A DNA stretch of 64,000 nt, from positions 62,001 through 126,000 of the forward strand of contig NZ_SRHV01000005.1 of NCBI RefSeq assembly GCF_004698125.1, written 5' to 3'. The notes below the pieces were generated by a model, which made no database searches, was not told the origin of the DNA, and saw only the letters and a program-made list of their open reading frames with translations. Every line of letters begins with the position of its first letter. Position 1 is the first letter of the stretch. The stretch is from Halosimplex halophilum. GTDB taxonomy: Archaea > Halobacteriota > Halobacteria > Halobacteriales > Haloarculaceae. Of the stretch, positions 7,432 to 61,140 are shown piece by piece. Both the position numbers and the translations under genes were made by a program.

Positions 7432-7890
7432 GCTGAACGCCCTCGGCGCGCTCGCGGTCGCTGTCTCCGAAAATCGAAGATTTTCGGGATGACGAGAGCG
7501 CTCCGCTCTCTCGAACCAAGCGACATATCCGCGCTCTCCGCACGGCCCGCTCACGGTACAGCCGTTCGCTTCGAGGCGCTGCGCGCCTCGCACCGCGCGG
7601 ATAGGGGTCGCTCAGACGACTCCCGGCGCGAGCGCACCTCGCCCGTTCAGTCCACCAGGGACCGCCCCGCACAGCACCGCAGGGGGCCTCACACCTCCCC
7701 AGCCTCTTGCGCTGTCTGCGGGCGACCCGAGCGTCGCCCGCATGGCCCGAGGGACCGCCGGTCCCTCGCTGCTCGCAGGCTGCGGTGCTCATCCACCGTC
7801 AGAGCAAGCGCTGACGAGCCTTCGCTCGCAGGCTCGCGAAGCCCTCGCGCGATGCTGTCGCGAGTCTCGTCTCGCGACAGCGCGCGCCGG
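7432..7890 (+). repeat. Nested-hairpin intergenic element, family 1, copy A
   Basis: Non-coding structured repeat between the convergent transporter and dephospho-CoA kinase genes. The outer arms are CTGAACG (7433-7439) and CGTTCAG (7644-7650), next to GCGCGCTCGCG and a partly matching partner. The inner arms AGCGAC (7519-7524) and GTCGCT (7607-7612) enclose ATCCGCGC/GCGCGGAT. Extra palindromic modules with 3-nt loops are inserted: CCGAAAATC-GAA-GATTTTCGG at 7467-7487, GAGAGCG-CTC-CGCTCTC, CGAGGCGC-TGC-GCGCCTCG and GAGGGACC-GCC-GGTCCCTC. The tail ends in CAGCGCGCGCC like the other copies. The outer stem carries an A:T to C:G change relative to copies B and D with pairing retained. Confidence 0.8.
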
Positions 7891-30051: not shown

Positions 30052-30969
30052 CTATCGCCCGCCGCTGGCTCCGTTCGCACCGCCGCCGTTACCGGCGTGG
30101 TCCGGCGGCCCGCCGGACTCGTCGTCTTCGTCCTCGTCGTCTTCGTCCGCGTCGTCAGCGTCTTCGGCCTCGTCGGCTTCGTCTTCTTCTTCGGCCTCGT
30201 CGTCCGCTTCGTCGTCCTCCTCTTCGGCTTCGTCTCCGTCGTCGTCCGCTTCGTCTTCCTCGTCCTCGCCGTTGCCGGCGTGGTCGGGCGGACCCTGGGT
30301 TCCGTTGCCGTCGTTGCCGGCGTGGTCGGGCGGACCCTGGGTTCCGTTGCCGTCGTTGCCGGCGTGGTCGGGCGGACCCTGGGTTCCGTTGCCGTCGTTA
30401 CCGGCGTGGTCGGGCGGACCCTGCGTATCGTTCCCCGTCTCGTTGCCGGGGCCGGCGTGGGCGGGCGGTCCGCCGCCGTTACCGGGGTTGTTGGCCGTCA
30501 CCCACGACGCGATGGCCAGGCCGCGGGGCCCGTCGGTGTCGTTCATCCCCGACATGAAGCCGACGAGCTGTCGCCCGAACGGCGCCCCCGTCTCGTTCGT
30601 GTCGTCCGTCTCGTTCTCCTCGACGGCCGTCAGGTCGGCCGTCGTCGTCGCCGAGTGGTTGTCGACCGTCGCCGTCACCGACACCGTCAGCGACTGGTTC
30701 GGCGCCGGCAGGTCGGCCGTTCCGTTCGGCCCGGTAGTGTGCGTCCCCGCGCCGTCGTACGTGACGTTCTCGGTGACCGTCGTCACGTTCACCGACGCGT
30801 TCGCGACCGTGCTGTCCGCCGTTTCGTTCGTGACCGTCACGGTGACGCCCTCCTCCTCCTGGTCCACGTCGACGCTCGGCGACTCCGACGACTGCGCCGC
30901 CATCGCCGGCGCCGCGACCGAGACGACCATCAGTGCCGCCAGTATCAACGCTCGTGTGCCCTGACTCAT
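30052..30969 (-). CDS. Secreted acidic repeat protein
   Basis: 305 residues. A Sec signal (ALILAALMVVSVAAPAMA) is cleaved near residue 25. Residues 26-125 form a Thr/Asn-rich, sequon-dense beta domain resembling a carboxypeptidase-regulatory-like fold. Then come repeats of GNDGNGTQGPPDHA (14 residues each) and a stretch of about 60 almost purely Asp/Glu/Ala residues, before GGPPDHAGNGGG. The repeats carry NGT sequons. No enzyme motif was seen. It is likely an extracellular glycoprotein with an extremely acidic disordered tail. Function unknown. Confidence 0.75.
   Translation of the reverse strand: MSQGTRALILAALMVVSVAAPAMAAQSSESPSVDVDQEEEGVTVTVTNETADSTVANASVNVTTVTENVTYDGAGTHTTGPNGTADLPAPNQSLTVSVTATVDNHSATTTADLTAVEENETDDTNETGAPFGRQLVGFMSGMNDTDGPRGLAIASWVTANNPGNGGGPPAHAGPGNETGNDTQGPPDHAGNDGNGTQGPPDHAGNDGNGTQGPPDHAGNDGNGTQGPPDHAGNGEDEEDEADDDGDEAEEEDDEADDEAEEEDEADEAEDADDADEDDEDEDDESGGPPDHAGNGGGANGASGGR
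30271..30423. repeat. 42-bp tandem repeat inside the acidic repeat protein gene
   Basis: Three identical 42-base units start at 30271, 30313 and 30355; a fourth at 30397 diverges after about 27 bases. Each unit codes for 14 residues, and unit length is a multiple of three, so copy-number changes keep the frame. Identity at the DNA level points to recent expansion. Confidence 0.88.
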
Positions 30970-41014: not shown

Positions 41015-41086
41015 GCGTCTCTGGCCCCAGATCTGCGCTTTCCAGGCGCTCGCTAGCTGTCGTATCTACCGCTGGGAACAGCTAGA

Positions 41087-41357
41087 GCTGAAAGCCCTCG
41101 GCGCGCTCGCGGTCGCTGAGCGACATATCCGCGCTCTCCGCACCGCCCGCGCGGATAGGGGTCGCTCAGGCGACTAAAATGGACGCGAGCGCGCCTCGCC
41201 CTTTCAGTCCGCCAGGACTGCACGGCACCGCGACCACCCCGAACAGCAACCGCAAACGGCCACGAGCCTCCCCAGCCGATTGCGCTTCTCGCAGGCTGCG
41301 ATGCTCATCCCTCGCGCGGTTCCGTCGCGCGCATGAAAGCGCGCGACAGCGCGCGCC
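41087..41357 (+). repeat. Nested-hairpin intergenic element, family 1, copy B
   Basis: The simplest copy, showing the basic plan. Stem 1 CTGAAAG (41088-41094) with CTTTCAG (41201-41207); stem 2 GCGCGCTCGCG (41101-41111) with CGCGAGCGCGC (41184-41194); stem 3 CTGAGCGAC (41116-41124) with GTCGCTCAG (41161-41169); stem 4 ATCCGCGC (41127-41134) with GCGCGGAT (41149-41156); the loop is about 14 nt. A tail with CCTCCCCAGCCGATTGCGC and CGCGCGACAGCGCGCGCC follows. It starts 73 bases after the folA stop. The remaining gap before the next convergent gene is filled by a tandem repeat. Confidence 0.83.
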
Positions 41358-41539
41358 ACCACACAGCAAACCGCCCCGCCACCGCACAGCAAACCGCCCC
41401 GCCACCGCACAGCAAACCGCCCGCCACTGCACAGCAAACCGCCCGCCACTGCACAGCAAACCGCCCCACCACCGGACAGCAAACCGCCCCACCACCGGAC
41501 AGCAAACCGCCCCGCCACCGCACAGCAAACGGCCTCGCC
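41358..41539. repeat. 22-23 bp tandem repeat, eight units
   Basis: Eight head-to-tail units of ACCGCACAGCAAACCGCCCC-GCC type, of 23, 23, 22, 22, 23, 23, 23 and 23 bases, with single-base variants (ACCACA, ACTGCA, ACCGGA). The period is not a multiple of three, so no frame could be conserved. There are no spacers, so it is not a CRISPR array. The array is a direct extension of the GC-rich tail of the family 1 element, ending 32 bases before the next gene's stop. Confidence 0.9.
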
Positions 41540-41571
41540 GCCACGGACGGCCAGCCGACATCCGTCGGGGC

Positions 41572-48720: not shown

Positions 48721-49047
48721 GATGAAAGCCCTCGGCGCGCTCGCGGTCGCTGAGCGACATATCCGCGCTCTCGGCACCACCCGCGCGGATAGGGGTCGCT
48801 CAGGCGACTGAACTGCACGCGAGCGCGCCTCGCCCGTTCAGTCCACCAGGGACCGCGACCGCACGGTACGGCACCGCGACCGCCCGCACAGCACCGCAAA
48901 GGGCCATGACCCTCCCCAGCCGATTCGCGACCCGCGAGTCGCGAATCCACCGTCGGAGCAAGCTCCGACGAGCCTTCGTTCACACAGTTCACGAAGACCT
49001 CGCGCGGCTACGGTCGCGCGCATGAACGCGCGCTCCAGCGCGCGCCG
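48721..49047 (+). repeat. Nested-hairpin intergenic element, family 1, copy C
   Basis: Same plan and orientation as copy B. The 5-prime arm begins ATGAAAGCCCTCGGCGCGCT and the 3-prime arm ends CGCCTCGCCCGTTCAGTCC, so the outer stem has one mismatch here. The inner stem GCTGAGCGAC/GTCGCTCAGGC and ATCCGCGC/GCGCGGAT are intact. Tail modules include GTCGGAGC-AA-GCTCCGAC, GATTCGCGA/TCGCGAATC and CGCGCGCTCCAGCGCGCG. It starts 72 bases after the hotdog gene stop and ends 46 bases before the convergent LLM oxidoreductase gene. Confidence 0.82.
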
Positions 49048-60419: not shown

Positions 60420-60549
60420 ACCGGATATACCCCCGCCGCGCACTTAGAAGTTCGACCGGTTTCGAGACGATGTGCTCGTTGAGTGGGTGTTTCTGCTGGG
60501 TTTGTCGTGGAAGGAAGTCGTATCGGGGAGAGCGCAGTCAACCACAGGC

Positions 60550-60950
60550 GCTGAAAGCCCTCGGCGCGCTCGCGGTCGCTATCTCCGAAAATCTTCGATT
60601 TTCGGGATCTCGCAGGAGCGGAGCTCCTGCGGACCTCGCGAATCTCCGATTCGCTCAGTGACGAGAGAGCGGAGCTCTCTCGAACCAAGCGGGATATCCG
60701 CACTCTCGGCACCGCCCGCTCACGGCACAGCCGTTCGCTTCGAGGCGCCCAGCGCCTCGCACCGCGCGGATAGTGCCCGCTCAGACGACTACACGAGCGC
60801 GAGCGCGCCTCGCCCTTTCAGTCCGCCAGGCGCCGCACCGCAACCCCACCGCAGACAGCCACGACCCTCCCCAGCCGATTCGCGACACACGAGTCGCGAA
60901 TCCCTCGCGCGGTTTCGTCGCGCGCATGAACGCGCGCTCCAGCACGCGCC
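60550..60950 (+). repeat. Nested-hairpin intergenic element, family 1, copy D
   Basis: The largest set of inserted modules. Outer stem CTGAAAG (60551-60557) with CTTTCAG (60815-60821). Inner stem AGCGGG (60688-60693) with CCCGCT (60776-60781), where copies A-C have AGCGAC/GTCGCT. 3-nt-loop modules: CCGAAAATC-TTC-GATTTTCGG (60585-60605), GCAGGAGC-GGA-GCTCCTGC, GCGAATC-TCC-GATTCGC, GAGAGAGC-GGA-GCTCTCTC and CGAGGCGC-CCA-GCGCCTCG. The tail with GATTCGCGAC/GTCGCGAATC follows. This copy lies upstream of a minus-strand gene rather than between convergent genes. Confidence 0.82.
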
Positions 60951-61000
60951 GACCGCACCGCAACCGCTCACCGCAACCGCTACCGCCTGTAGTTAGCGTC

Positions 61001-61140
61001 CGGCGCCGAAGGCGCCGGTTCACCGGACGCGAGCGAACGCAGTGAGCGAGTCGTCCGGCCTTTTTCACCCATGTTTTTGGACCGGGGGTGCCCGCAGCGC
61101 CCTCTGGGCGCGAGGACACCCCCGGTCGAAAAAGATGGTG
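61001..61140 (+). repeat. Hairpin element flanking usp, family 3, copy 1
   Basis: Three hairpins in series: GGCGCC-GAA-GGCGCC (from 61002); CCGGACG to CGTCCGG followed by a T run; and TTTTTGGACCGGGGGT (61074-61089) pairing with ACCCCCGGTCGAAAAA (61118-61133) with one mismatch, enclosing GCGCCC-TCT-GGGCGC. It sits immediately before the stress-protein gene. Copy 2 has the same order of parts with different stem sequences. Confidence 0.8.

Follow-up and report, generated by a model that had tools for sequence, protein, structure and literature searches.

Dispersed hairpin repeats of Halosimplex halophilum and their probable counterpart upstream of plasmid OB-fold genes

We show that four intergenic elements in one stretch of the Halosimplex halophilum genome (64,000 nt in length, referred to here as the window) belong to a dispersed repeat family, and we hold it very probable that this is a family of non-autonomous mobile DNA-hairpin repeats. 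With equal confidence we consider the unit shared by all copies, a nested hairpin of about 120 nt (the core), to be homologous and functionally linked to a locus of haloarchaeal plasmids, at which a core precedes a gene for an OB-fold (SSB/RPA-like) protein. The explanation as a whole, in which dispersed DNA-hairpin repeats carry a core homologous to a single-copy cis element before the plasmid OB gene, is the one towards which we lean. The plasmid locus was not foreseen by the first-pass annotation of the window.

Copies in the window and in the genome

That annotation had described four elements in one orientation with a shared fold, and both the copies and their positions were confirmed. 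An exact arm search places the outer arms, all on the plus strand, at 7433–7439/7644–7650 (copy A), 41088–41094/41201–41207 (copy B), 48722–48728/48835–48841 (copy C) and 60551–60557/60815–60821 (copy D). The core nested hairpin of copy A (7433–7653) has two hairpin cassettes and the outer arms CTGAACG/CGTTCAG, and is followed by a linker and tail with additional hairpins (7660–7888). Copy B, which served as the reference in the genome search, has a core without cassettes (41088–41210) and a linker and tail (41217–41357), and is preceded by the remnant of a tandem unit bearing the left arm (41046–41087; the unit period is 57 bp and BLAST matches to other copies begin at 41046). In copy C the core (48722–48844) has a broken outer stem (ATGAAAG/CGTTCAG) and the linker and tail occupy 48851–49046. 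Copy D begins with a 5′ module (GTGCTCGTTGAGTGGGTGTTTCTG..AACCACAGGCG; 60475–60550) that also precedes many other copies of the same genome, and continues with the core (60551–60824; stem B at 60563–60574/60798–60808, stem D from 60694 and to 60773), which carries an optional small-hairpin cassette between its GGTCGCT and AGCGGG motifs (60581–60687; the loop reads TTC, against GAA in copy A), and with the linker and tail (CCTCCCCAGCC..CTCGCGCGG..CACGCGCC; 60831–60950), where similarity to other genome copies reaches about +220.

The stem GGCGCGCTCGCG is present with its partner in all four window copies, the 3′ arm of the long stem of copy A being CGCGAGCGCAC, with one mismatch. RNA folding z-scores against shuffles are −4.8 (A), −5.7 (B), −4.1 (C) and −6.2 (D), and the apical motif, of which the window has two occurrences, was absent from all 100 shuffles. 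The compensated differences reported earlier are real, A differing from B and D in the outer stem (CTGAACG/CGTTCAG) and D from A–C in the inner stem (AGCGGG/CCCGCT). The count of three independent compensated pairs holds as one in the outer stem and two in the inner stem, but the inner two are adjacent; likewise, the common outer stem holds for the other copies, but its break in copy C had been overlooked. Proof of paired arms rests on the large alignment described below and not on three changes among four copies.

Several other repeats were seen in the window. Immediately 3′ of copy B, at 41350–41540, lies a tandem array of a 23-bp unit (CCGCCACCGCACAGCAAACCGCC), which has apparently grown out of the linker motif of the element. 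Beside copy D, at 61000–61130, there are two more strong palindromes that have T- or A-runs: GTCCGG..CCGGAC, with CCTTTTTC after it, and GACCGGGGGTGCCC..GGACACCCCCGGTC, with GAAAAAG after it. Positions 30105–30434 hold a 42-bp tandem repeat and a low-complexity, coding-like region.

Contig C3, from which the window comes, is part of a 4.47-Mb genome with about 86 copies. A BLAST search with the 130-nt core of copy B finds 40 near-full matches there; a 24-mer from its right end matches at 86 sites, split 42 to 44 between the strands, and the reversed control matches nowhere. The full element runs in the order optional 5′ module, tandem left-arm units, core, linker and tail. The tandem unit repeats the left arm of the core; it comprises GCTGAAAGCCCTCGGCGCGCTCGC and a further 33 bp or so, has a period of 57 bp in most cases and is present in one to four copies per element when that of the core is included; the linker consists of ACCGCACAGC-like repeats, the tail reads CCTCCCCAGCC..CTCGCGCGG..GCGCGCC, and hairpin cassettes enter core and tail at fixed points. 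Measured from the right end of the core, copies resemble one another from about −260 to about +220, and the limits of this similarity are ragged.

All 86 copies are intergenic according to a codon-based gene caller, and the orientations of the flanking gene pairs (++ 16, −− 26, −+ 23, +− 17, undetermined 4) are close to the genome baseline. Since no transcript ends between divergent genes, the 23 copies so placed do not fit a role as terminator, and together with the near-baseline context they speak against the action in transcription termination, in the 3′-UTR or in mRNA 3′-end stability that the first-pass annotation had entertained. Its other suggestion, chromosome organisation, fails for a spacing-dependent organiser because the spacing of copies is random on C1 and C2, with mild clustering on C3. 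The four minor contigs C4–C7 hold none of the 86 copies, against 5.6 expected (P 0.003); one of them bears a TnpB gene, though without any copy.

Pairing of the core arms

When 40 cores drawn from H. halophilum and its family are aligned, pairing extends to 90.1% of cells. Both sides have changed in 23 of the 41 pairs, a number that none of 500 shuffles reaches; when the partners are slid by one to three columns, pairing falls to 28–48%. Covariation in a large alignment, on which the first-pass annotation had staked its reading, is thus strong, and its proposal that selection or copying keeps both arms matched is upheld. Within the core, moreover, there are unpaired positions that are invariant.

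Whether the paired molecule is DNA or RNA was left undecided by that annotation, and of the two DNA is now favoured. Among 104 distinct cores, 3908 paired cells (a count that omits the two outermost pairs and comes from an alignment built with an RNA model) comprise 3620 Watson–Crick, 31 G-T and 66 A-C cells. A structured RNA would be expected to show more G-U than A-C on its transcribed strand, as in seven control tRNAs taken from the window and sister genomes (G-U 9, A-C 0, with ARAGORN brackets that favour G-U), and the cores do not show this. Additionally, the loops of the cassette hairpins occur in both orientations (GAA/TTC 7:3; GGA/TCC 7:1 and 5:1; GCA/TGC 2:5). It is because G-T is not enriched over A-C and because the loops occur inverted that a DNA element is preferred over RNA. 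Judged from these alignments, the structure looks to be kept at the DNA level, be it through selection on a DNA hairpin, through template switching inside the hairpin, or both. Rfam searches of the window gave no match above the gathering cut-off, and those of five OB loci stayed empty even up to E 0.1. Used in combination, the covariation, wobble and loop-inversion tests provide a purely sequence-based means of distinguishing hairpins in DNA from structures in RNA.

The plasmid OB-fold gene locus

On haloarchaeal plasmids and at integrated loci, a single core lies on the same strand as, and some 0.4–1 kb upstream of, a gene for an OB-fold protein, within a non-coding stretch of 0.6–1.3 kb. 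The protein is annotated as SOSS-B, replication factor A or DNA-binding protein, and for its OB domain the matches are to archaeal SSB/RPA models and structures, most of them scoring under the curated cut-offs; the gene family occurs on 130 to 196 plasmid records, and a mating apparatus was typed on only some of the OB plasmids. Examples of core and gene together are pNG500, other Haloarcula plasmids, a Haladaptatus plasmid and Halorientalis marina, while pNRC100, Halomicrobium urmianum and another Haladaptatus plasmid have, in the same place, cores with the same ends and a different middle. Covariance-model scores of plasmid cores range from 58 to 98 bits.

OB homologues were also collected by protein search in 30 genomes, with their flanks scored for the core afterwards. 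Cores of 84–112 bits lie upstream of the gene, in its orientation, at six of these loci; at another five there are weak matches, similar in position and likewise in the orientation of the gene. In a test for core ends, 19 of 31 OB loci had them upstream on the same strand, none upstream on the opposite strand and none downstream on either strand; four of the 31 had been found via the core itself, and when these are set aside the figures are 15 of 27 against none. Most of the 30 genomes were picked for carrying cores, so that 19 of 31 is not a class-wide rate, but the strand and position controls are independent of that choice. The chance of the core–OB linkage in two low-copy genomes of the genus Haloarcula is 1.5e-7 and 1.3e-9. 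No recognisable core was present at OB loci L414, L415, L418 and L423. In H. halophilum itself, the OB gene at C2:317877 has an intact core 1.6 kb upstream and, where the core would normally stand, no more than a remnant of the right arm. For most OB-linked cores the resemblance is to dispersed cores from their own clade or a related one, and from this we conclude that both pools share ancestry.

The arrangement recalls Frpo1 and Frpo2 of the F-plasmid leading region, Frpo2 being a hairpin promoter that is active in ssDNA and lies upstream of ssb (PMC9849209). Common to both systems are a long hairpin in plasmid DNA, a fixed strand and a position upstream of a gene for an ssDNA-binding protein, a layout found here at the 19 of 31 OB loci mentioned above and at none in each of the three control positions. 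In contrast to Frpo, the haloarchaeal core is archaeal and unrelated in sequence, is separated from the start codon by 0.4–1 kb that include a second structured domain, and has dozens of chromosomal copies; the likeness is thus one of layout, and promoter action of the core would be an analogy drawn from it.

The second conserved structured region, of about 350–480 nt, lies between the core and the start codon of the OB gene on haloarchaeal plasmids (1785–2503 of locus L401, 1904–2503 of L397, and L410 and others). It has the order GCCCGCCCCGCTCGCCGC..TTCCGGGC..CGACGCCAGC..GGCGCGCGGTGCTGG, then a GCGCTCTCGCTCGCGCCC hairpin and then a leader hairpin, and no Rfam match. Of its 50 predicted pairs 17 are doubly changed, with G-U 33 against A-C 18 (a count biased by RNAalifold), and it is possibly a structured RNA leader. 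Homology of the chromosomal tail to this domain was considered and set aside, as only short, weak and unconvincing matches were found.

If the core and the region behind it were transcribed, they might constitute a structured ncRNA or 5′ leader that regulates the OB gene or acts in trans, and the chromosomal copies would be pseudogene-like or functional RNA genes. Strong covariation of the core and conservation of the second domain before the OB ATG, doubly changed pairs and G-U excess included, are what such an RNA would display, and a haloarchaeal PATE has been reported as transcribed (PMC10544981). We nevertheless regard this account as unlikely, given that on the would-be leader strand G-T cells of the core are fewer than A-C despite the RNA-model alignment, that inverted hairpin loops indicate DNA processes, that Rfam provides no match and that the G-U count of the second domain carries the RNAalifold bias.

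Spread, known repeat families and origin

The covariance-model search of haloarchaeal genomes that the first-pass annotation had recommended covered 391 genomes of the class, of which 130 match at E 1e-4 and about 99, in eight haloarchaeal families, at E 1e-8 or better. Since weak matches (below about 40 bits, near 37) were also found in coding DNA, class-wide counts use E 1e-8 or better only. Among 392 genomes sampled from the phylum there were 20 matches at 1e-8, all in Halobacteriales and none outside. The matches include Halorussus, Haloparvum, Haloarcula and Natronococcus, and, on plasmids, Haloarcula, Halovenus, Halorussus and Haladaptatus.

Syntenic comparison, likewise recommended, revealed filled and empty sites among sister species for copies B, C and D, and with the intergenic placement of all copies this bears out the mobile, structured intergenic element that had been proposed. 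Locus B is filled in H. halophilum and H. pelagicum and empty in the sister genomes G093, G091, G090 and G094 (H. salinum); locus C is filled in H. halophilum, H. salinum and G095 and empty in H. aquaticum; locus D has no copy in G092 (H. pelagicum R2) or G093. At matching sites of G092 and G093, five G092 copies are absent from G093 and one copy shows the reverse, a regex match in a coding region of G093 having been excluded as a false positive. The best junction pair shows an insertion between two convergent stop codons 3–5 bp apart, with 40–60 bp of extra flank. Neither a target-site duplication nor a clean junction was found at the compared sister loci, where intergenic DNA is too diverged to exclude a short duplication, and no mobilising enzyme was found. 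A viral origin was rejected because neither phage records nor IMG/VR contigs contained a match.

In other genera the core stands alone between closely spaced genes (core-only copies of 110–125 bp with ends GAAAG/CTTTC) or elements form tail-to-tail inverted pairs. The pairs measure ~430–550 bp and have two different tail types, both outer ends being GAAAGCCC-like (1117–1619 of L143, 1064–1617 of L123, 1156–1611 of L147, 1501–1933 of L153 and 1501–1973 of L156). At loci L140 and L152, from two genera of another family, the core lies upstream of the same gene and is 94% identical, against 40% and 73% for the flanks, and this identity supports the view that the core is under constraint at this orthologous locus.

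Such constraint is at odds with a purely selfish hairpin of MITE or SMR type, whose arms would be matched by template switching in replication, which would have no function for host or plasmid and for which the OB position would be an insertion hot spot. Loop inversions and identical tandem 57-bp units would follow readily from that mechanism, and presence/absence polymorphism and the core-only copies between genes of other genera agree with it. However, strand and position relative to the OB gene stay the same from family to family, cores that have degenerated but kept their ends persist at that position, and some unpaired positions of the core are invariant; a purely selfish origin is, in our assessment, improbable.

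The first-pass annotation knew of no named family matching the element, and this stands: Rfam has no match, and no known family (PATE, RAYT, SMR-A, Rfam) passed. Similar in size is SMR-A of Haloquadratum walsbyi (PMC3119063), a haloarchaeal repeat of about 110 bp with inverted terminal repeats and many copies; the 110–125 bp core-only copies share its size and ends, and in neither case has a target duplication been seen or a mobiliser become known. SMR-A prefers PATE/IS605 palindromes, whereas the 86 copies lie in plain intergenic DNA with no IS605 gene adjoining, and it is on this targeting that SMR-A fails, by its published description rather than by sequence comparison with HqIRS42/43/55. 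Pneumococcal BOX (PMC3049150) is similarly an intergenic stem-loop composite with variable tandem units between fixed modules, as are the one to four left-arm units here, but in our family the unit is a copy of the left arm outside the hairpin, the sequence is unrelated and the core has a fixed plasmid locus.

PATE and REP/RAYT fail on defining features. Y1_Tnp is absent from five high-copy genomes, one of which also lacks TnpB, and H. halophilum has one truncated copy; IS605-type enzymes are therefore not needed. That the family consists of PATE, IS200/IS605-derived and moved by TnpA, is highly improbable, even though PATE (PMC3119063) are haloarchaeal, non-coding, palindrome-rich, dispersed without a transposase and up to about 500 bp long (our elements likewise are rich in hairpins and show no coding capacity and, in their Halosimplex form, no terminal inverted repeat), since there is no link to an IS605 gene, the four TnpB genes of H. 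halophilum lie kilobases away from any copy and high-copy genome G256 has neither TnpA nor TnpB, a judgement made by genes and not by PATE-end sequence. A literature search that left subscription journals and preprints outside its scope returned no description of this repeat family.

Returning to dispersed DNA-hairpin repeats with a core homologous to the cis element of the plasmid OB gene, we suggest that the core at the plasmid locus would work as a folded single DNA strand or a cruciform, most likely as an ssDNA promoter or protein-loading hairpin that would activate the SSB-like gene while the plasmid is in single-stranded form. Action like that of an ssDNA promoter, by analogy with Frpo, is put forward tentatively. 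The chromosomal copies may be offshoots of the plasmid element, spread by some mobilising route. Their hairpin cassettes and 57-bp left-arm units would have been acquired or lost, and most copies would have no gene to control. There are hints here of a plasmid control sequence turned genome-wide repeat, and descent in the reverse direction is also possible. More doubtful still is the fullest form of the proposal, namely that conjugative plasmids of haloarchaea have in the core the first archaeal ssDNA promoter (or a hairpin for SSB loading), from which the chromosomal copies were seeded.

As a rule, the source of dispersed palindromic repeats is not known; in the present case there is a candidate source locus with a fixed SSB/RPA-like partner gene, spanning eight haloarchaeal families and over 100 plasmid records with the OB gene, so that known plasmids such as pNG500 and pNRC100 allow a direct test of the repeat's origin and function. 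The core may, finally, be what corresponds in archaea to the ssDNA promoters that serve conjugation.
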